Below are positions 50,699 to 64,000 of a stretch of DNA of 64,000 nt, piece by piece (within the stretch, counting starts at the first letter, position 1; every line of letters starts with the position of its first letter). The translations under genes and the position numbers were made by a program. This stretch comes from Shinella sp. PSBB067 (GTDB lineage Bacteria; Pseudomonadota; Alphaproteobacteria; Rhizobiales; Rhizobiaceae): positions 1,922,001 through 1,986,000 of the forward strand of contig NZ_CP069303.1 in the NCBI RefSeq assembly GCF_016839145.1, written 5' to 3'. The notes below the pieces were generated by a model. That model saw nothing but the letters and a program-made list of their open reading frames with translations, was not told the DNA's origin and did not search any database.

Positions 50699-51817
50699 AT
50701 GAAGATCGCTTCGACGCAACAACCGCAGGGAACAGACGTGACATCCGCCTCCACGAACGACATCGAGTTCCGGTCGGTGACCAAGCGCTATGGCGCGGTG
50801 ACCGCGGTCTCCGACATAAACCTTTCCGTGCCGAAGGGTGCTTTCGTCGCGCTGCTCGGCCCGTCCGGCTGCGGCAAGACGACCTGCCTTCGCATGATCG
50901 GCGGCTTCGAGCAGCCGAGCGAGGGCGAGGTGCTGATATCAGGCACTATCGCCAACGGCGTGCCGGCCTATCGCCGCCCGGTCAACATGGTGTTCCAGCA
51001 ATATGCGCTCTTCCCGCATTTCGACGTGGAGAAGAACGTCGCCTACGGCCTGAAGCAGCTTCGCCCGAGGCTGCCGGCCGGGGAGATTTCCCGCCGCGTC
51101 GGCGAGGCGCTGGAGATGGTGCGCCTTTCCGGCTTCGCCAGGCGCCGCATCCATGAGATGTCCGGCGGTCAGCAGCAGCGCGTGGCGCTCGCCCGCGCGC
51201 TCGTCAACAAGCCCTCCGTGCTCCTCCTCGACGAGCCGCTCGCGGCCCTCGACAAGAAGCTGCGCACCGCCATGCAGATCGAGCTGCAGACGCTCCAGCG
51301 CGACCTCGGCATCACCTTCGTCCTCGTCACCCACGACCAGGAGGAGGCGCTGTCGATGAGCGACCTCGTCTGCGTCATGAGCGCCGGCCGCATCCGCCAG
51401 CTCGCGACGCCCCAGGAGGTCTACGACCGCCCGGCCGATCTCTTCGTCGCCGATTTCGTCGGCAAGACCAACCGTTTCGATGGCACGCTGGAGGCCGGCG
51501 GCACCATCCGCCTCGGCAATGGCACGGCCCTGCCCGCCCCGCGCGGCGATCTTCAGCCGGGCGCCGTCACCGTGGCGCTCCGACCCGAGGCGATCCGCCT
51601 TGCGCGCGGCGCGGCGGGCGCGACGACGCTGGAGGGCACCGTCACCCACCGCATCTTCCTCGGCTCGGCCGCCGAATATTCCATCGCCATCGACGGGCTG
51701 GGCGACCTCCTCGTCACCGCCGAACGCCATAACCAGTCGGAAAACGACCTCGTCGCGCCGGGCGAACGGGTCGCAATCAGCTTCGATCCCGGTACAGCGC
51801 ATATCTTTCCGGCCTGA
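50699..51817 (+). CDS. Polyamine-type ABC transporter ATP-binding protein (PotA-like)
   Basis: A 372-residue ATPase with Walker A GPSGCGKTT, signature MSGGQQQRVALARAL, Walker B VLLLDEPLAALD, switch His FVLVTHDQEEA and a C-terminal TOBE domain. ATG 50699 has no ribosome site, whereas an in-frame GTG at 50738 follows AGGGAACAGAC and would drop 13 residues, so GTG may be the true start. It is the first gene of an operon of ATPase, binding protein, two permeases and a dehydrogenase. Confidence 0.9.
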   Translation: MKIASTQQPQGTDVTSASTNDIEFRSVTKRYGAVTAVSDINLSVPKGAFVALLGPSGCGKTTCLRMIGGFEQPSEGEVLISGTIANGVPAYRRPVNMVFQQYALFPHFDVEKNVAYGLKQLRPRLPAGEISRRVGEALEMVRLSGFARRRIHEMSGGQQQRVALARALVNKPSVLLLDEPLAALDKKLRTAMQIELQTLQRDLGITFVLVTHDQEEALSMSDLVCVMSAGRIRQLATPQEVYDRPADLFVADFVGKTNRFDGTLEAGGTIRLGNGTALPAPRGDLQPGAVTVALRPEAIRLARGAAGATTLEGTVTHRIFLGSAAEYSIAIDGLGDLLVTAERHNQSENDLVAPGERVAISFDPGTAHIFPA

Positions 51818-51852
51818 GGGGAAACAGGCCCCAAACACAAGGGAACAGTGTG

Positions 51853-53019
51853 ATGTCGAAATGGTTCAGAGAGAATGCCCCGATCAGCGCCCATGAGCTG
51901 ACGGAAGAATTCATGCGCCTGAAGCGCGGCTCCGTCACGCGCCGCCACTTCCTCGGCGTCACCGGCCTCGGCCTTGCCGCCGCCGTGCTCGCCCGCCAGC
52001 CCGGCCTCTTCAATTCGGCCGCCTATGCGCAGCAGGAAGACCTCGGCTCGGCCATGTCCATCGCCACCTGGCCGAACTACCACGACCCCGCGACCTTCGA
52101 GGCCTTCACCGCCGAGACGGGCGTCGCCGTCGAGGTCAACGTCTTCGGCTCGAACGAGGAGATGCTGGCCAAGCTCCAGGCCGGCGGCACCGGCTGGGAC
52201 CTCTTCGTTCCCACCAACTACACGATCTCCACCTATGCCGGCCTCGGCCTGATCGACCCGCTCGACCTCTCCAGGGTGCCGAACTTCGACCAGAAGACCC
52301 AGAACACGCGCTTCACCAACGAGGGCACCGTCGACGGCAAGGTCTATGCGCTGCCGAAGAACTGGGGCACGACGGGCATCGCCGTCAATTCCGACAAGGT
52401 GAAGTCCAAGGTCACGAGCTGGAAGGAATTCTTCGAGATCGCCATGACCGAGGCGGACGGCCGCGCCATGGTGCACGACTACCAGCTCACCACCATCGGC
52501 AACGCCCTCGTCTCGCTCGGCTTCTCCTTCAACTCGGTCAAGCCCGCGGAGCTTGCCAAGGCCGAGGAGCTGCTGATCAAGGTCAAGCCGCACCTCTATG
52601 CCATCAACAGCGACTACCAGCCCTCCATGCGCGCCACCGACGCCTGGATGACCATGTGCTGGACAAACGACGGCGCGCAGCTCAACCGCGACATCCCGGA
52701 AATCCACTTCACGCTCGGCTCCGACGGCGGCGAGATCTGGTCGGACTTCTACGCCGTGCCGACGGCGGCCGCCAACAAGCCGGCCGGCTATGCGCTGCTC
52801 AACTACCTGATGGACCCGCAGCATGCGGTGAAGGAGCACATCGCCAACGGCGCGCCCACCACCGACAGCCGCGTCATCGCCCTGCTGCCGGCCGAGATCA
52901 CCGGCAACAAGATCGTCTATCCGGACGAGGCCGCGCTGACCCCGCTGGAATTCGGCGCCGCCGTGACGCTCACCGACCCGGCGCGCGCAGAGCTGATGGC
53001 ACGGTTCAAGTCGGCGTAA
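51853..53019 (+). CDS. Polyamine-type ABC substrate-binding protein, Tat signal
   Basis: A 388-residue periplasmic protein of the PotD/PotF family (spermidine/putrescine and related amines). The N-terminus is unusually long before the twin-arginine motif (SVTRRHFLGVTGLG, about residue 29), with the signal ending SAAYAQ. The mature part shows MSIATWPNYHDP, AGGTGWDLFVPTNYTIS and LPKNWGTTGIAVN, typical of PotD-like folds. A GTG lies immediately before the chosen ATG. It is followed by repeat hairpins before the permease genes. Confidence 0.87.
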   Translation: MSKWFRENAPISAHELTEEFMRLKRGSVTRRHFLGVTGLGLAAAVLARQPGLFNSAAYAQQEDLGSAMSIATWPNYHDPATFEAFTAETGVAVEVNVFGSNEEMLAKLQAGGTGWDLFVPTNYTISTYAGLGLIDPLDLSRVPNFDQKTQNTRFTNEGTVDGKVYALPKNWGTTGIAVNSDKVKSKVTSWKEFFEIAMTEADGRAMVHDYQLTTIGNALVSLGFSFNSVKPAELAKAEELLIKVKPHLYAINSDYQPSMRATDAWMTMCWTNDGAQLNRDIPEIHFTLGSDGGEIWSDFYAVPTAAANKPAGYALLNYLMDPQHAVKEHIANGAPTTDSRVIALLPAEITGNKIVYPDEAALTPLEFGAAVTLTDPARAELMARFKSA

Positions 53020-53024
53020 CGGAA

Positions 53025-53220
53025 AGGCCCCTCCCCACAAGGGAGAGGGGCTTACCGTGCCGCTCCGTTGGCATTCATTATGGAATGGTGAGCAAGCCTC
53101 CTCCTTCTCCCCCCTTGTGGGGGAGATGCCGGCAGGCAGAGGGGGTGGCCCCGCGAAGCCGGGGCGTTACGGCAAGCCCCCTCCCTAAATCCCTCCCCAC
53201 AAGGGGGAGGGATTTAACCA
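53025..53220. repeat. Cluster of GC-rich palindromic repeats inside the ABC operon
   Basis: Three stem-loop units occur: CCCCTCCCCACAAGGGAGAG near 53031-53051; TCTCCCCCCTTGTGGGGGAG near 53106-53127, followed by ATGCCGGCAGGCAGAGGGGG; and ATCCCTCCCCACAAGGGGGA near 53190-53214. The 267-base gap between binding protein and permease consists mostly of these. No gene is seen. They probably lower or stabilise parts of the polycistronic mRNA. Confidence 0.65.
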
Positions 53221-53286
53221 GCGGTACCCTCAGCATTCGATTTCGAACGGTAGGCAACCCTCGCAATTCGCAACAGGACCAACGCA

Positions 53287-54153
53287 ATGCCCCTGACGAC
53301 GACGGCGAAAAGACGGCTGGTGACGACGGCGCTGCTGGCGCCGGCCTCCCTCTGGCTGTTCGTCTTCCTGGTGCTGCCCTTCATCGCCATGGTGGTCTTC
53401 TCCGTGGGCGAGCGCGGACCTGCGGGCGGTTACCAGGCGGCCTTCACCTTTGCGCAATATGCCAACCTGCCGGCCCGTTCCGCCGCCTACTGGAACACGC
53501 TGATGCTGGCGCCGGTCGGCGCGTTCCTCTGCCTGCTGGTCGCCTATCCGACGGCCTATTACCTCGCCGTCAAGGCGAGCCCGCGCCACCGGCTGCTGCT
53601 GGTCTCGCTGGTCGTCGTGCCGTTCTGGACGAGCCTTCTGGTGCGCACCTATGCCTGGATGTACATTCTCGGCTCGCGCGGCATCCCGAACCTCCTCGAC
53701 ATGATCGGCATCGAGAACGTGCGCCTGCTCAACACGCCGGGCGCCGTGTTGCTCGGCATCGTCTACGGCTACCTGCCACTGATGATCATGCCGATCTATG
53801 TCAGCCTCGAAAAGCTCGACCGCCGGCTGCTGGAGGCTTCGGCCGATCTCGGCGCCAAGCCCGTCTCGACCTTCTTCTCCGTCACCCTGCCGCTCTCGCT
53901 GCCGGGCGTCATGACGGGCGTCGCGCTCGTCACCATCCTGCTGCTCGGCGAATATCTCATTCCGCAGCTTCTCGGCGGCGGCAAGGTCTTCTTCATCGGC
54001 AATGCGCTGGTCGACCTCTTCCTGCAATCGCGCAACTGGCCCTTCGGCTCGGCCATTGCCGTCACGCTGGTCGCCATCGTGGTCGTGGTGCTGATGGTCG
54101 CCATGCGCATCGCCTGGAAGATCTCCGGCACGAGACAGGTGGACCTCGTCTGA
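53287..54153 (+). CDS. Polyamine-type ABC permease (PotB-like)
   Basis: A 288-residue membrane subunit with about six helices and the EAA coupling loop LLEASADLGAKPVSTFFSVT (about 180-200). WTSLLVRTYAWMYILGSRG is characteristic of PotB/PotH. Its stop codon shares one base with the next permease's ATG (TGATG). Confidence 0.9.
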   Translation: MPLTTTAKRRLVTTALLAPASLWLFVFLVLPFIAMVVFSVGERGPAGGYQAAFTFAQYANLPARSAAYWNTLMLAPVGAFLCLLVAYPTAYYLAVKASPRHRLLLVSLVVVPFWTSLLVRTYAWMYILGSRGIPNLLDMIGIENVRLLNTPGAVLLGIVYGYLPLMIMPIYVSLEKLDRRLLEASADLGAKPVSTFFSVTLPLSLPGVMTGVALVTILLLGEYLIPQLLGGGKVFFIGNALVDLFLQSRNWPFGSAIAVTLVAIVVVVLMVAMRIAWKISGTRQVDLV

Positions 54154-54977
54154 TGCGCGCTCTGATAACCTCCGTCTATCTCTTCCTTTACGCGCCGATC
54201 GCGCTGGTCGTGCTGTTCTCTTTCAATGCGGGGCGCAATGCCAGCGAGTTCACCGGCTTCTCGACGCAATGGTACGGCAAGGCGCTCGCCAATCCGTTCC
54301 TCGTCGCCGCGTTGCAGAACAGCCTGATCATCGCGTTTACCAGCGCCACGCTCGCCGCCGTCTTCGGCACCATGGCCGCCCTCGGCCTGGAACGCCTCGG
54401 CGCGCGCACCCGCGCCCTCTTCGACGGCCTGCTCGCCGCCGCCATCGTCGTGCCGGGCGTCGTCATCGGCATCGCGACGCTGGTCGCGCTCGTCGCCGTC
54501 TTCGGCGTCGTCAACCCGGCCATCGCCTCGCTCTGGCCGGGTGAGAAACCGCCGCAGCTCGGCCTCGGCTACGGCTCGATCATCGCCGCGCACGGCCTCT
54601 TCACCATGGCGCTCGTGACGATGATCGTGAAGGCGCGCATCGCCACGCTCGGCCGCGACATCGTCGAGGCCTCAGCCGATCTCTACGCCACGCCCCTCAC
54701 CACCTTCCGCGATATCGTCCTGCCGCAGATCCTGCCCTCGGTGCTGGCCGGCTTCCTGCTCGCCTTCACCTTCTCCTTCGACGATTTCATCGTGGCCTTC
54801 TTCGTCGCCGGCTCCAAGACGACGCTGCCGATCTACGTCTTCGCCTCGATCCGCCGCGGCGTGACGCCGGAGGTCAACGCCATCGCAACGATGGTGCTGG
54901 TCGCCTCGCTCTTCCTCATCCTCGTCGCCCGCCTGCTCATGCGGGAAAAGAAAACGAAATCGCCTGCCGGAGAATAA
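54153..54977 (+). CDS. Polyamine-type ABC permease (PotC-like)
   Basis: A 274-residue membrane subunit with about six helices and the EAA loop IVEASADLYATPLTTFRDIV (about 168-190). FSFDDFIVAFFVAG near the C-terminus is the PotC/PotI signature. It is coupled to the PotB-like gene and followed 3 bases later by the dehydrogenase gene. Confidence 0.9.
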   Translation: MRALITSVYLFLYAPIALVVLFSFNAGRNASEFTGFSTQWYGKALANPFLVAALQNSLIIAFTSATLAAVFGTMAALGLERLGARTRALFDGLLAAAIVVPGVVIGIATLVALVAVFGVVNPAIASLWPGEKPPQLGLGYGSIIAAHGLFTMALVTMIVKARIATLGRDIVEASADLYATPLTTFRDIVLPQILPSVLAGFLLAFTFSFDDFIVAFFVAGSKTTLPIYVFASIRRGVTPEVNAIATMVLVASLFLILVARLLMREKKTKSPAGE

Positions 54978-57861: not shown

Positions 57862-59520
57862 TCACGCCTTTATATGCCCGATGCCCTTCTTCCCGATCTC
57901 GTCGAAGGACTCCTCATAACCCGCATCCGCATAGCGGATGACGCCGAGCGAGGTGTCGTTGGTGAGCGCGTGTTCCAGCCGCTCCGCGCCGTCGGCCGTG
58001 CCGTCGGCGACGAGCGTGACGCCGCAGCTCGTCATGTAACCCGCATAGCCGCCGCCGCCGGAATGGACGACGACGAGATCGGCCATCGAGGAGCAGAGCA
58101 GCATCGCGTCGAGCAGCGGCCAGTCGGCAATGGCATCCGAACCGTCCTTCATGCGCTCCGTCATGATATTGGGATGCGCCATGGCGCCGGCATCGAGATG
58201 GTCGCGCGAAAAGGCGACCGGCCCTTTCAGTTCACCCGCCGCCACCAGCCGGTTGACGGCGAGCGCCAGCTCCGTGCGCTCGCCATGGCCGAGCCAGGCG
58301 ATGCGCGCCGGCAGCCCCTCGAAGGGAATGTTCTCGCGCGCAAGGCGGATCCAGTTGGTGACGATGCTGTTGTCGGGGAACATCTCCAGCACAAGGTCGT
58401 CGATGCGGGCGATGTCGCTCTCCTCGCCTGACAGCGCCATCCAGCGGAACGGCCCGATGGCCCGCGCAAAGAGCGGCCGCAGATAGGCTTCCGTGAAGAT
58501 CGGAATGTCGAAGGCATCGGCAACGCCTCCCTCCCGCGCCTGCGTGCGGATGAGGTTGCCGTTGTCGAAGACCTCGGAGCCTCGTTTCTGGAACTCCAGC
58601 ATCGCCGAGACATGCTCGACGATGGAGGCGCGGCTCGCCGCCATGAGCTGGCCCTGCCCGTCCTCGCGCAGGTCCTTCACCTGCTCCAGGCTCATGCCCT
58701 TCGGCACATAGCCATAGACGAGATCGTGCGCCGAGGTCTGGTCGGTGACGATGTCGGGCACGATGCCGCGCCGGGCGATCTCGGGATAGATTTCCGCCGC
58801 GTTGCCGACGAGGCCGATGGACGTCGCCCGCTTCTCCTTGACGGCCGTGTCGATCATCGCGAGCGCGGTGTCGATATCCGGCGCGACATGCTCCAGATAG
58901 CCGACCGCCTTGCGCTTGGCGGCCCGCTCCGGGTCGATGTCGACGCACAGGATCGCCGCGCCCGCCATGCGGCCGGCGAGCGGCTGCGCGCCGCCCATGC
59001 CGCCGAGGCCGGCGGTCAGGATGAAGCGCCCGGCAAGGCTGCCGCCGAAGCGCTTTTCCGCGATGCGCATGAAGATTTCATAGGTGCCCTGGATGACGCC
59101 CTGGCTGCCGATATACTGCCAGGCGCCCGCGGTCAGGCCGCCCCAGCAGATCAGCCCCTTGCGCTGCAGCTCGTAGAACACCTCCGCCTTCGCCCACTGC
59201 CCGACGATGTTGCAGTTCGCCATGATGACGAGCGGCGCCTTCGCATGGGTCCTGAGCAGGCCAACAGGCTTGCCGGACTGGATGACCAGCGTCTGGTCCT
59301 CCTCCATCTCGCTCAGCGCCTTGACGATGGCCTTGTGCGCCGCCCAGTTGCGCGCCGCCTTGCCGAGCGCGGCATAGACGATCAGGTTGTCCGGATCCTC
59401 GCCGACCGCCAGCACGTTTTCCAGAAGCCGCAGCAGCGCCTCCTGCCGCCAGCCCCTGGCGCGCAGCACGTTGCCGCTCGGGATAGGGTAATTCGGATGG
59501 CGCGGATTGGGTTTGGGCAT
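57862..59520 (-). CDS. Urocanase-family hydratase, candidate thiourocanate hydratase
   Basis: A 552-residue NAD+-dependent hydratase of the urocanase family. Conserved parts are QSGKPVGLLRTHAKAP (81-96), YIGSQGVIQGTYE (136-148) and the NAD site TAGLGGMGGAQPLAG (169-183). Two catalytic segments differ from HutU: RICW(V/L)G, which carries the active-site Cys (Cys410 in P. putida), reads RIAWLG (A408), and the HHGGGVGMG region reads HSGGGGYAGY (486-495). With a DUF917 desulfurase, hydantoinase and carbamoylase upstream in the same operon, thiourocanate is a better guess than urocanate as substrate. ATG 59520 follows AGAGGGACAAGCC. Confidence 0.82.
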   Translation of the reverse strand: MPKPNPRHPNYPIPSGNVLRARGWRQEALLRLLENVLAVGEDPDNLIVYAALGKAARNWAAHKAIVKALSEMEEDQTLVIQSGKPVGLLRTHAKAPLVIMANCNIVGQWAKAEVFYELQRKGLICWGGLTAGAWQYIGSQGVIQGTYEIFMRIAEKRFGGSLAGRFILTAGLGGMGGAQPLAGRMAGAAILCVDIDPERAAKRKAVGYLEHVAPDIDTALAMIDTAVKEKRATSIGLVGNAAEIYPEIARRGIVPDIVTDQTSAHDLVYGYVPKGMSLEQVKDLREDGQGQLMAASRASIVEHVSAMLEFQKRGSEVFDNGNLIRTQAREGGVADAFDIPIFTEAYLRPLFARAIGPFRWMALSGEESDIARIDDLVLEMFPDNSIVTNWIRLARENIPFEGLPARIAWLGHGERTELALAVNRLVAAGELKGPVAFSRDHLDAGAMAHPNIMTERMKDGSDAIADWPLLDAMLLCSSMADLVVVHSGGGGYAGYMTSCGVTLVADGTADGAERLEHALTNDTSLGVIRYADAGYEESFDEIGKKGIGHIKA

Positions 59521-59548
59521 GGCTTGTCCCTCTTGCGAATATGTCGTG

Positions 59549-59878
59549 TTACTTCGGCGGCAGCGTATCGACGAAGGCGATCGCCTCGCCAATCAGGCGG
59601 CGACGCAGGACCTCGTCCGAGCAGGCTTCGGGAGAGGCGCGAACCCAGCCCTCCATGGCCCGCTGCCCCATCCTCACGGGTCCGACGCCATCGATGGCGA
59701 GCGCAAAGGCATCATTGCCCTTGCCGAGGCGAACCATTAGGCCCTGCCTGCTTGCACCGCAAAGAAGGTGGCCGTCGAGCAGCCAGGCAAGCCCGCCGAA
59801 CATCGGCTTTTCCGAGAGCCCGGCGCGCAAGCCGAGATCGGCGCGGACGATGTCCTCCAGTTCCCTGTCCCGCGCCAT
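59549..59878 (-). CDS. TfoX N-terminal-domain protein inside the lyase/hydratase operon
   Basis: A 109-residue protein consisting only of a TfoX/Sxy N-terminal domain: KPMFGGLAWLLDGHLLCGAS and GLMVRLGKGNDAFAL are the family landmarks. TfoX in gamma-proteobacteria regulates competence, but single-domain relatives are mostly of unknown function. It is 13 bases downstream of the DUF917 gene and 28 bases upstream of the urocanase-like gene, so it is part of the operon. The second of two adjacent ATGs (59878) has better ribosome-site spacing. Confidence 0.8.
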   Translation of the reverse strand: MARDRELEDIVRADLGLRAGLSEKPMFGGLAWLLDGHLLCGASRQGLMVRLGKGNDAFALAIDGVGPVRMGQRAMEGWVRASPEACSDEVLRRRLIGEAIAFVDTLPPK

Positions 59879-59891
59879 CATCCGCCTCCGG

Positions 59892-60983
59892 TCACTTGGC
59901 CAGGGCGTAGCGGGCGAGCTCGATCCCCATCGCCTTCTCCACCGAGGGGTAGACGGTCGGGTCGAGGACGCTGGAGGCGAGCGGAATGATCGTCTTCGGC
60001 ACATGCAGCACGAAGACCTTCATGCCGACTTCGAGCTGGCCGACGCTGAGCGGCTCGCCCTCGGGCGAGAGCGTGGTGATCACATCGGGGAAGGTGGCAA
60101 GGCGCTTGCCCCCGGCAGACTCCACCGCCATGTACTCGTTCATCACATGCAGCACCGAAGCGCTGTCGCCCGTGCCGAGCGTCACGGTGCCGATGTCGAA
60201 GGCTTCCTTCGTGTAGACCACGGACTTGTCGGTGATCGTGCCCTCGGAAAGGATCGCGCCGCCCGTCGTCTTCACGATGGCGTCGATGACCGCCGAACCG
60301 CCCTTGGCTTCCGCCGCGATGATCGCCTCGCCGAGATCAAGCGCCAGCGAGATGCCGCCGAGTGCCGCGTTCTTGCGCACGTAGGAGGCGCGCAGCGGAT
60401 TGCGGCAGGATGCGATGAAGCCGCCGGACATGTCGGACGCCGTGCGCAGGATGGGCGAGACCTTCGCCGTCGCGCCCCGCACGACAAGCTCGATATAGCG
60501 GTTCTCCTCGCGGTTCCCGCCGACGGCCGTCTGGATCATCTCGTCGGGCGAACCGGCCATGCCGATGGAGCCCATATCGCCGGTCGGATGCGCGCGCATG
60601 TCGCCGACGGCATCCAGCACCTTCGTGCCGAGGATGGCCGAAGGCAGCCAGCCGTTCAGCGTCGAGGACCTGCCGTTCTGTCCCACCATCAGCGCCGCGA
60701 CCGTCTCGCCCAGCGCCTCCTGCAGGAGCTGCACCGCCTTCACATAGTCGACGCCGCGCATTTCCCAGGGCGTCGTCGAGGCCGGCGCGCCGATGGCCGC
60801 CGCCGTCGCCACCCAGTCGTCGTCGCAGAGCTCGTCGATGGACACCAGTTCCGGCTTGCCGATCGAGACCGCCGCATGGCCCAGCATGCGCCCGTGATCG
60901 GCCCAGCCGCCGCCGCCGGCGGCATAGACGGAGCCGCCCTTGACCGCCGCCTCGACGTCTTTTTCCTTTAAAATCCGGCCCAT
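59892..60983 (-). CDS. DUF917 (S-methyl-thiohydantoin desulfurase family) protein
   Basis: A 363-residue cytosolic protein of the DUF917 family. The N-terminal GGSVYAAGGGGWADHGRML and ELVSIDELCDDDWVATAAAIGAP are typical, and ILSEGTITDK and the VLHVMNEYMAVE segment lie in the C-terminal domain. The family is associated with removal of sulfur from thiohydantoin rings. Here the probable reaction is hydrolysis of 3-(5-oxo-2-thioxoimidazolidin-4-yl)propionate to hydantoin-5-propionate and H2S. The ATG shares one base with the upstream stop (TGATG). Confidence 0.82.
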   Translation of the reverse strand: MGRILKEKDVEAAVKGGSVYAAGGGGWADHGRMLGHAAVSIGKPELVSIDELCDDDWVATAAAIGAPASTTPWEMRGVDYVKAVQLLQEALGETVAALMVGQNGRSSTLNGWLPSAILGTKVLDAVGDMRAHPTGDMGSIGMAGSPDEMIQTAVGGNREENRYIELVVRGATAKVSPILRTASDMSGGFIASCRNPLRASYVRKNAALGGISLALDLGEAIIAAEAKGGSAVIDAIVKTTGGAILSEGTITDKSVVYTKEAFDIGTVTLGTGDSASVLHVMNEYMAVESAGGKRLATFPDVITTLSPEGEPLSVGQLEVGMKVFVLHVPKTIIPLASSVLDPTVYPSVEKAMGIELARYALAK

Positions 60984-62260
60984 CACACGCTCTCCTGAAT
61001 CACGTCCTGAAGTTTCTCGTCGAGTTGAATCACCGCGTTAAGAAGCACCGCCGCACCGAGCGCGATGTCGTCCGTTTCCGCGAATTCCTCCGGCGCATGG
61101 CTGCGCCCGCCAAGGCACGGCACGAAGATCATCGCCGCCCGCGTCACCTTCGCCATGAAGGCCGTGTCGTGCCCCGCGCCGGACGCCATGCGCCGATGGC
61201 TCGCCCCCGCCGCGACGCAGGCCGCGTCGAGAACGTCGAGCACCAGCGGATCGCCCGGCGTCGGCATGTTGTCCGAGATACGGCGCGGCGGCCCGATGAC
61301 GGTTCCCGTCTCGCGCGCGACGTTCGCTGCAAGCTGCTCGACGGAAGCCGCGAAGACCTCCATCGTCGTGCGCTCCTCCGCCCGCGCGTCGATCAGCAGC
61401 CGCACCCGCGACGGCACGACATTGGCCGCATTCGGCTCGATGGCGAATTCCCCAACCGTGGCCGTGAAATGCCCCGGCCCGGCCGCCAGCGACGTCGCCA
61501 GTGCTTCCACGCCCGTCACCAGACGCGCGGCGGCGGCGAGCGCATCGGCACGGCGGCCCATCGGCGTCGTGCCTGCATGGTCCGCCCGGCCCTCGACGAC
61601 GATCTCGATGCGTGTGATCCCGGCAATCGCCGTCACCACGCCGATGTCGAGCCTTTCGGTCTCCAGCACCGGCCCCTGTTCGATATGCAGTTCGAGGAAA
61701 GCCGCGATGTCCCTTCGTGCTTCTGCGGCAATGCGCGCCGGATCGCCGCCGGCATTGCGAATGCCCGCTTCCAGCGTCAGCCCGTCGCTCTGCCGCGACA
61801 GCCAGTCCTCCGGCAGCACGCCCGCCATGCCACGGCTGCCGATGCAGGAGACGCCGAAGATCGAGACCTCCTCGGCCAGGAAATCCACCACCTCCAGATC
61901 GTGGTCGAGCGCAATGCCCCGATCGGCCAGCGCCCGCGCCACCTCCAGCGCCACCGCGACGCCCGCGATGCCGTCATAGCGCCCGCCATCCGGCACCGTG
62001 TCGGAATGCGAGCCGAGCATGATCGTGCCGAGACCGGGCTTTTTGCCTGCCCGCCGCGCAACGAGGTTGCCCGCCGCATCGATGCGCGTCTCAAGACCTG
62101 CGGCCTTGAACTTCTTTTCGAGAAACGCCCGCCCCGCCGGGAAAAGGGCGGAGAAAGCCCGCCGCGTATAGGGCCGGTCTGGTTCGGTGATCAGGGCAAG
62201 CCCGTCGATCACATCCGCGATGCGGGCGGGATCGACCGGCAGGTTGGACGCGCGGGCCAT
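60983..62260 (-). CDS. M20-family N-carbamoyl-amino-acid hydrolase (allantoate amidohydrolase-like)
   Basis: A 425-residue di-zinc amidohydrolase. Metal-binding motifs are GSHSDTVPDGGRYDG (His and Asp), FLAEEVSIFG (Glu pair), LHIEQGPVLE (His) and the C-terminal GGRSHAPEE; RADHAGTTPM lies in the dimerisation lid. The family removes the carbamoyl group as CO2 and NH3. In this operon the likely substrate is N-carbamoyl-L-glutamate, giving L-glutamate. ATG 62260 overlaps the hydantoinase stop by one base. An in-frame extension to 62386 lies inside the upstream gene. Confidence 0.87.
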   Translation of the reverse strand: MARASNLPVDPARIADVIDGLALITEPDRPYTRRAFSALFPAGRAFLEKKFKAAGLETRIDAAGNLVARRAGKKPGLGTIMLGSHSDTVPDGGRYDGIAGVAVALEVARALADRGIALDHDLEVVDFLAEEVSIFGVSCIGSRGMAGVLPEDWLSRQSDGLTLEAGIRNAGGDPARIAAEARRDIAAFLELHIEQGPVLETERLDIGVVTAIAGITRIEIVVEGRADHAGTTPMGRRADALAAAARLVTGVEALATSLAAGPGHFTATVGEFAIEPNAANVVPSRVRLLIDARAEERTTMEVFAASVEQLAANVARETGTVIGPPRRISDNMPTPGDPLVLDVLDAACVAAGASHRRMASGAGHDTAFMAKVTRAAMIFVPCLGGRSHAPEEFAETDDIALGAAVLLNAVIQLDEKLQDVIQESV

Positions 62261-63639
62261 CAGACGGCGCCCGCAACGGCGAGCGTCGGCAGCGGCCGCA
62301 CGAAGGCGCCGGTGCCGGGTTCGGCGAGCACCGTCGTGCCGTCGAAGGCGAGCCTGCCGCGCAGCCAGGTGGCCGAGACGCGCCACGGCAGGCGGATGCC
62401 GTTATAGGGCGACCAGCCGACGACGTTGTGACCGCTCGCCGCCGCATCATAGGTGTAAGGCTCGGGCGTCAGCACGGTGATGTCGGCATCCTTGCCGGCT
62501 TCGAGCGCGCCCTTGGCATGGTCCAGCCGGAAATGCCGCGCCGGGTTCAGCGCCATCAGCCCGGCCGCGCGCGTCAGCGGGATGCCGCGCTCCAGCGCGC
62601 CCTTGATAAAGAGCGGCACCATGACCTCCAGCCCCGGCACGCCGGAGGCGTTGGCCAGCATGTCCGGATCGGTCTTGCGATCCTCCGACCAGCTCACATG
62701 GTCGGTGGACACCAGCGTGACATTGCCGGCAGCGACATGCCGCCAGAGCTTTTCCACCTCGGCGCGCGGGCGGATGGGCGGGTTGATCTTCGCCTTGCCG
62801 CCGAGCCGGGCGACGTCGTTCTCCTCGTCGAGCGTCAGGTAATGGATGCAGCACTCGATGGTCGCGCGGTGCCCCTGCGCCCGGTAGGCCGCCGCGATCT
62901 CGTAGCCGCGGCCGAGCGAGCAATGCACCACATGCGCCGGGCAGCCGGTCGCCGCCCCCGTCTCGTAGATCTGGTTGGAGGCGAGCAGTTCCGTCAGCGG
63001 CGGGCGCGACAGGCCATGGGCGCGATAATCGGTGATGCCGGCCGCCTTCACCTTGGCGATCGCCGCGCGCACCGCCTCGTCGTCCTCGTTGTGCACGCCG
63101 GCCGTCAGCCCGGTCGGCGCGATGGCGCGGAAGCAGTCCTCCAGCAGCGCGGCCGGAATGCGCGGAAAGCGCTTCGGATCCGTGCCGAAGGTGGAGAACT
63201 TGAAGGCCGCGACGCCCGCCTCCACCATCTCGCCGATCCGCGCCGGTCCCTCCTCGGGATCGACCGTGCCATAGAGCGCGAAATCCACCCGCGCCTGCGG
63301 CCCCGCATGGTCCACCTTGCGCTTCACGGCCTCGGCCGAGCAGACAAGGTTGCCCTCGTCATAGGGCATGTCGACGATGGTCGTGACGCCGCCGGCCGCC
63401 GCCGAGCGCGTCGACCAGATGAAATCCTCCTGGTTCTTCTGCGAGAGCGAATGCACCTGCGCATCGATGGCGCCGGGCAGGATCAGCGCGCCGGAAAGAT
63501 CGTGCCGCTCCTTCGCCGCGGGCATAGTGCCCTGGCCGACATGCACCACCTTGCCGTCGCGCACCGCCACATGCCCGCCGTCCACGATGCGGTCCGCGAG
63601 AACCACGGTGCCTTTCACAACGAGATCGAAATCGGCCAT
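62260..63639 (-). CDS. Cyclic amidohydrolase (hydantoinase/dihydroorotase family)
   Basis: A 459-residue ring-opening amidohydrolase. Metal-site elements are LPGAIDAQVH (QxH instead of the usual HxH), AAFKFSTFG (probable carboxylated Lys), GVHNEDD, HVVHCSLGRG and VSTDHVSWS (Asp). The first His-to-Gln change is seen in some dihydroorotase-like groups. It probably opens hydantoin-5-propionate to N-carbamoyl-glutamate here. GGAGACCCCG precedes the ATG, 11 bases after the lyase stop. Confidence 0.87.
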   Translation of the reverse strand: MADFDLVVKGTVVLADRIVDGGHVAVRDGKVVHVGQGTMPAAKERHDLSGALILPGAIDAQVHSLSQKNQEDFIWSTRSAAAGGVTTIVDMPYDEGNLVCSAEAVKRKVDHAGPQARVDFALYGTVDPEEGPARIGEMVEAGVAAFKFSTFGTDPKRFPRIPAALLEDCFRAIAPTGLTAGVHNEDDEAVRAAIAKVKAAGITDYRAHGLSRPPLTELLASNQIYETGAATGCPAHVVHCSLGRGYEIAAAYRAQGHRATIECCIHYLTLDEENDVARLGGKAKINPPIRPRAEVEKLWRHVAAGNVTLVSTDHVSWSEDRKTDPDMLANASGVPGLEVMVPLFIKGALERGIPLTRAAGLMALNPARHFRLDHAKGALEAGKDADITVLTPEPYTYDAAASGHNVVGWSPYNGIRLPWRVSATWLRGRLAFDGTTVLAEPGTGAFVRPLPTLAVAGAV

Positions 63640-63650
63640 CGGGGTCTCCG

Positions 63651-64000
63651 TCAGGGCTTGAGGGCAAAGAAGGCGTCGAAATCCGCCATGGGCGCGGCCT
63701 CGACGAAGGCGGCGAGCGCCTCGGGGCTGGCAAGGTCGCGGTCGAGCGCCTCGATCTCGGCGGAGAGCGGCCTGTCCTTGCGATAGAAGGGGCTGATCGC
63801 CCGCGTGCGCTGGTAGGCGATGGCCGCCACGCCCTCGACATTGTCGCCGGCAAGGTCCACCGCCTGGGCGGAGAGCATGGCCTCGAGCGCCGCGAGCTGG
63901 TGGAGGTCGCGCACCTGGCTTTCCATGCGCTCGACGATGAGCGGCAGGAAGGTCGCCTCCTCCTCCAGTCCGCCGGCAACGACGATGGACTGCGCCGAGA
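63651..64000 (-). CDS. Histidine-ammonia-lyase-family enzyme, C-terminal part (candidate ergothionase)
   Basis: About 115 C-terminal residues of an aromatic-amino-acid-lyase (HAL/PAL) family protein are visible; the rest lies beyond the right edge. SAQSIVVAGGLEEEATFLP corresponds to the family's SAN-QED region, and LHQLAALEAMLSAQAVDLAG and FYRKDRPLSAEIEAL to the usual helical end of HutH. The catalytic MIO Ala-Ser-Gly is not in view. It is the most upstream visible gene of the operon with hydantoinase, carbamoylase, DUF917 and urocanase-like genes, which points to a trimethylamine-releasing lyase acting on ergothioneine. Confidence 0.75.
   Translation of the reverse strand, partial: SAQSIVVAGGLEEEATFLPLIVERMESQVRDLHQLAALEAMLSAQAVDLAGDNVEGVAAIAYQRTRAISPFYRKDRPLSAEIEALDRDLASPEALAAFVEAAPMADFDAFFALKP

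Follow-up and report, generated by a model that had tools for sequence, protein, structure and literature searches.

An ergothioneine-to-glutamate operon predicted in Shinella, headed by a distinct lineage of MIO-less lyase

Ergothioneine is a fungal (mushroom) and actinobacterial antioxidant that reaches the soil. Its breakdown in Burkholderia sp. HME13 reportedly involves five enzymes, namely (i) an ergothionase, (ii) a thiourocanate hydratase, (iii) a thiohydantoin desulfhydrase, (iv) a hydantoin-propionate hydrolase, and (v) an N-carbamoyl-glutamate hydrolase. The route bears curated names in NCBIfam, whose release 20.0 (June 2026) supplied the equivalog models with curated cut-offs used here. 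For gut bacteria, an ergothionase, thiourocanic acid and a thiourocanate desulfhydrase are treated in the accessible part of PMC13405746, where a survey with the Burkholderia ergothionase as sole query is presented and only similarities to HAL, PAL and TAL are reported; by this design, as far as that part of the paper describes it, a lineage of only some 29% identity would likewise go unnoticed. A rhizobial ergothionase was absent from the matches listed in a literature search that covered open-licence papers and left subscription papers uncovered, which is weak evidence of absence.

The stretch of DNA analysed here (the window, 64,000 nucleotides of Shinella sp. PSBB067) carries a minus-strand operon of six genes, i.e., five predicted enzymes of the ergothioneine route and one TfoX-domain gene (Table 1), in which all five activities of the HME13 route are represented. 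By these predicted functions, the operon would serve ergothioneine catabolism, a reading to which a probability of about 0.83 is given, and it is as such a predicted variant of a route already known, with a distinct lyase lineage. The original prediction of a complete ergothioneine-to-glutamate route is supported by four family cut-offs passed, a lyase nearer to ergothionase than to histidine lyase, and HutH and HutU encoded elsewhere in the genome. Gene identities, family scores, synteny and the loss of the MIO triad, given below, were computed.

The substrates, products and regulation of the operon are those we infer as follows. The MIO-less lyase would remove trimethylamine from ergothioneine to give 2-thiourocanate, to which the thiourocanate hydratase would add water to form thiohydantoin propionate; the desulfurase, formerly DUF917, would then swap sulfur for oxygen, releasing H2S and leaving hydantoin-5-propionate, whose ring ErtD would open to N-carbamyl-glutamate, from which ErtE would take off the carbamyl group to yield glutamate, CO2 and NH3. 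Control of the operon probably falls to a divergently encoded LysR protein that has two HTH stretches. The families concerned could be used as markers for tracing the release of trimethylamine and H2S.

Table 1. Genes of the operon and of its neighbouring regulator, with predicted functions (window positions; those called window-equivalent lie beyond position 64000)
Predicted product	Position	Strand	Family evidence
Lyase, MIO-less, ergothionase-like, 512 aa	63651..64000 in window, start at window-equivalent 65189	-	Pfam Lyase_aromatic; solved relative 6s7j
ErtD, hydantoin-5-propionate amidohydrolase (ring opener), 459 aa	62260..63639	-	Pfam Amidohydro_1; NF058538
ErtE, N-carbamyl-L-glutamate amidohydrolase, M20 family	60983..62260	-	Pfam Peptidase_M20; NF058540
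Thiohydantoin desulfurase, former DUF917	59892..60983, or 60986 if GTG start	-	Pfam S-Me-THD_N/C; NF058529
TfoX N-terminal-domain protein	59549 to 59878 or 59881	-	PF04993 (TfoX_N), 39 bits
Thiourocanate hydratase, urocanase family, 552 aa	57862..59520	-	Pfam Urocanase; NF058530
LysR regulator, two HTH_1 stretches, 384 aa	window-equivalent 65365-66519	divergent from lyase	

From the lyase to the hydratase, the gaps computed from the gene coordinates are +11, -1, -1, +10 or +13, and +28 bases, the fourth varying with the choice between two adjacent ATGs as the TfoX start. The six tightly spaced minus-strand genes had been recognised beforehand, and the genes and four of the gaps stand as first described, whereas the gap between the lyase and the ring opener had been put at +8; the families then named for the six genes agree with their Pfam matches. 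The arrangement is not a matter of chance, since the five enzyme genes keep their order in 17 contigs from Shinella, Mycoplana and Rhizobium, on two plasmids and in two genomes of the same family (L059 and L061); in another genome of that family (L060), the lyase, desulfurase, TfoX and hydratase genes are present.

Scanning of species genomes gave 19 loci, i.e., 11 from Shinella, six of Mycoplana or Rhizobium type, and two of HutH type. Throughout the 17 Shinella, Mycoplana and Rhizobium-type loci, the lyases are 84-94% identical to that of the window and the order of the enzyme genes is unchanged. The nearest named loci are those of Shinella, in keeping with the rhizobial relative that had been proposed as the source. 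A desulfurase over the cut-off is found in 20 of 61 relatives, and in 17 of 21 genomes of the same genus, the window's own included. Ergothioneine degradation by the full route would thereby be placed as a common trait in Shinella and its relatives. In Rhizobium alarense (L021), the alignment of the lyase gene is split in two by about 100 additional bases. Five of the six Mycoplana or Rhizobium-type loci (L017, L018, L019, L020 and L022) carry, 2-3 kb past the hydratase gene, a gene for SBP56 (selenium-binding), which we take to be of the methanethiol-oxidase family; none was present downstream of the hydratase in the Shinella loci searched.

The TfoX gene is an accessory and sporadic member. 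It occupies the same slot at six of the 23 loci with a rhizobial lyase, namely the window, two of the 11 Shinella loci and the three genomes of the same family (L059-L061), and the slot measures 2 to 544 bases at the other 17, none of which held a convincing TfoX remnant; short and weak translated matches (best E 9e-5) occur in the slot of R. subbaraonis. Against the PDB, the TfoX protein gave no significant match (best E 0.12).

Four of the five pathway steps proposed in the original prediction are backed by NCBIfam equivalog models, the cut-offs being passed by the thiourocanate hydratase (1054 bits, cut-off 930), the thiohydantoin desulfurase (600 bits, cut-off 440), ErtD (802 bits, cut-off 600), and ErtE (594 bits, cut-off 520). 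The M20 protein also passes a general model of Zn-dependent hydrolases (NF009531; 659 bits, cut-off 486), on which it scores higher than on ErtE. The hydratase passes the general hutU model as well (691 bits, cut-off 375), so that the thio-specific cut-off is what separates it; in 398 Pseudomonadota genomes, this cut-off is exceeded in six only (1028-1061 bits), the next match reaching 720 bits. Its nearest solved structure, 7ned, is an entry titled urocanate hydratase (822 bits vs. 616 for the next). In Burkholderia arboris, the hydratase and the desulfurase are respectively 70 and 67% identical to those of the window.

The operon could instead be directed at S-methyl-ergothioneine or ergothioneine sulfonate, and a comparison is then offered by the S-methyl-thiourocanate type cluster of the Agrobacterium plasmid pAtAF1_95 (L072), which comprises the same five families, i.e., related urocanase, DUF917 protein, M20 hydrolase, amidohydrolase and lyase, and passes the S-methyl models NF058531 (976 bits, cut-off 880) and NF058532 (536 bits, cut-off 450); in the accessible part of PMC13405746, a paper on ergothioneine sulfonate catabolism is cited beside Agrobacterium radiobacter. 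The window hydratase and desulfurase, however, reach 744 and 289 bits, respectively, on these two models, missing both cut-offs while passing the thio ones, and the window operon is devoid of the molybdopterin S/N-oxide reductase that figures, together with a betaine-type transporter, among the extra genes of the Agrobacterium cluster. In the tree, the lyase of the latter is placed on the side of HutH. This reading is considered very unlikely. A lyase related to that of pAtAF1_95 (L111) was observed in genome G107, which has a window-type operon too.

The kinship of all these families with the hut enzymes, together with the passing of the general hutU cut-off by the hydratase, raises the alternative of an operon for histidine or methylated histidine. 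Canonical hutH and hutU share the HAL and urocanase superfamilies with the operon but are present in this genome as separate copies, close together and about 0.9 Mb away, with a true HutH at 722 bits, over its cut-off, and a HutU that scores 685 bits against the thiourocanate model, short of the cut-off of the latter. As a complete HutH and a HutU are encoded apart from it, as the operon includes a gene of the desulfurase family, and as the lyase is without the MIO triad and obtains 210 bits on the hutH model for a cut-off of 539, such an alternative is hardly credible. A canonical ergothionase set elsewhere in the genome, a possibility raised beforehand, gained no support: outside the operon, no protein was found to pass the cut-off for thiourocanate hydratase or that for thiohydantoin desulfurase, the second DUF917-type gene scoring 110 bits for a cut-off of 440. 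EgtD was searched for in the genome and not found, so that the cell probably makes no ergothioneine by the usual route. All 10 genome matches to TIGR03105 (named glutamine synthetase III), which we take to be a model of the GMAS kind, stay below the cut-off, a point that counts against the ergothioneine reading.

For the lyase, NCBIfam has no ergothionase model, and the lyases of B. arboris and Paracoccus denitrificans match HutH-type or aminomutase models only, below cut-off. The assignment was approached through structure, residues and phylogeny. The best solved relative is the ergothionase of Treponema denticola (6s7j, 8e-54), the best histidine lyase entry coming at 8.5e-40. The active site, which the original prediction had left to be read beyond position 64000, has GSMGCA-DIG vs. 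GSVGASGDL in HutH, i.e., the MIO-forming Ala-Ser-Gly is lost and the loop is shortened by one residue; this same shortening is found in the lyases of T. denticola, B. arboris, P. denitrificans and Deinococcus. In an alignment of 22 of the 23 rhizobial lyases (L021, in two pieces, being omitted), three lyases of the classical type and 12 HutH, 14 residues including Asn201 and Lys381 are fixed in the 22 rhizobial and three classical-type proteins and absent from the 12 HutH. Seven of the 14 occur also in the Deinococcus or Agrobacterium lyase, Asn201 and Lys381 not being among these. The position of Lys381 is presumably that of the catalytic lysine of the T. denticola ergothionase. Among the three classical-type proteins, that of T. 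denticola is solved and named as an ergothionase, and the other two are classed as ergothionases by gene context only.

Against the assignment, overall similarity is low on all sides, the window lyase being 28-29% identical to the three classical lyases (29% to both T. denticola and B. arboris) and 28% to the HutH of its own genome, with bit scores of 199 for T. denticola, 142 for B. arboris, 132 for P. denitrificans and 132 for the genome's own HutH. Compared with the T. denticola enzyme, the window lyase combines the shortened loop and the 14 shared residues with a deep split in the tree; compared with B. arboris, where the lyase gene is placed after that of the hydratase, the window lyase comes first in its operon and belongs to a clade of its own. 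A first tree, built from 27 rows, resolves the rhizobial lyases as one clade (100/100) whose branch measures 2.7 changes per column. With the set enlarged by five lyases, of which three have the MIO triad, the rhizobial and the classical lyases came together with 94/94, just under the star threshold and with long branches, and the rhizobial branch measured 2.3 changes per column. By topology tests, grouping of the classical lyases with HutH alone was rejected (p-AU 4e-5), and a topology with the Deinococcus lyase among the ergothionases was not (p-AU 0.19). The grouping with true HutH that would have spoken against the original prediction is not what appears, the lyase being nearer to ergothionase, without the MIO triad, and joined to the classical lyases at 94/94, a support just short of that threshold. 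It is predicted to be a separate branch of the ergothionases, and a second lyase lineage is hereby named that family models would label as histidine lyase, even the B. arboris lyase having no model of its own. An AlphaFold model of the lyase (19 rows; mean pLDDT 60) was set aside.

The depth of the rhizobial clade, with its branch of 2.3-2.7 changes per column, and the several otherwise fixed positions at which rhizobial lyases differ from both classical lyases and HutH could point to a different true substrate, be it a betaine or an amine, of the 2-thioimidazole or the selenoimidazole kind (e.g., selenoneine or a thiohistidine with fewer methyl groups), ergothioneine then being a side substrate. 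Retention of Lys381 and of other shared residues in the rhizobial lyases argues against it, and the loss of MIO fits a trimethylammonium leaving group, ergothionase being described as without MIO in the accessible part of PMC13405746; this option is regarded as improbable, and the lyase is read as a putative ergothionase.

Concerning regulation and uptake, the original prediction had called for a regulator and an importer, and the divergent LysR gene is a candidate for the former; no importer could be tied to the operon. In the window, 175 bases separate this gene from that of the lyase. Every one of the 17 named loci likewise has a divergent LysR gene beside the lyase gene, as does an Ochrobactrum plasmid; in Rhizobium SL42, it lies between the lyase gene and ertD, and none adjoining the operon was detected in L059-L061. 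Two HTH_1 stretches are present in all eight LysR proteins tested from thiourocanate clusters of Rhizobiaceae, Ochrobactrum, Paracoccus and Thalassospira, and the window LysR aligns over almost its full length with the other seven. Three of the eight, from Neorhizobium, Paracoccus aminophilus and Thalassospira, come from clusters without a lyase in the stretch read, the absence applying to these stretches rather than to other replicons of the strains, and the Neorhizobium stretch ending with its record. Since it also accompanies clusters where no lyase is seen, the LysR protein may sense thiourocanate or a later intermediate.

Lyase-free clusters were encountered among nine plasmid records with a desulfurase of at least 60% identity: a lyase is encoded nearby in four (rhizobial in two, classical in two), tblastn revealed none in the stretch examined of a further four, and a Microvirga record has none by annotation, the urocanase being likewise absent. 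In the draft genome G289 (estimated 100% complete), the sole Lyase_aromatic match is a HutH of the MIO type, and in its cluster (L062) the ertD, desulfurase and hydratase genes are preceded by those of an ABC importer whose binding protein is of family 3, ertE being undetected in this stretch. Bacteria with such clusters would take thiourocanate from outside, and cross-feeding on thiourocanate in soil thereby becomes testable. On plasmid pAMI4 of P. aminophilus (L068), the lyase-free thiourocanate cluster is located beside genes for a CoA transferase and two acyl-CoA dehydrogenases, near TRAP transporter genes; these neighbours might feed dihydrothiourocanate into the thiourocanate module. Tentatively, and with the odds slightly against it, thiourocanate breakdown could be pictured as a portable module (hydratase, desulfurase, ErtD, usually ErtE, and the two-HTH LysR) with interchangeable front ends, i.e., (i) the rhizobial MIO-less ergothionase of a second class, (ii) the classical ergothionase, as in B. 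arboris and P. denitrificans, or (iii) no lyase, with import of the thiourocanate of others or of its CoA-activated dihydro form.

As for the surroundings of the operon, a PotD-like ABC transporter encoded at 50699-54977, upstream within the window, was weighed as a possible importer and discarded, as nothing links it with the operon. Beyond the LysR gene, at window-equivalent 67500-75577, lies an operon for carnitine catabolism that includes a GbdR-like regulator and whose carnitine 3-dehydrogenase scores 896 bits for a cut-off of 592. The BKACE gene of this carnitine operon occurs close to the ergothioneine genes at 17 of the 23 rhizobial-lyase loci, namely the window, 11 from Shinella and five of Mycoplana or Rhizobium type; among the six without it, L021 has a flank of less than 2 kb. 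An IS110-type transposase gene is inserted within the carnitine operon.
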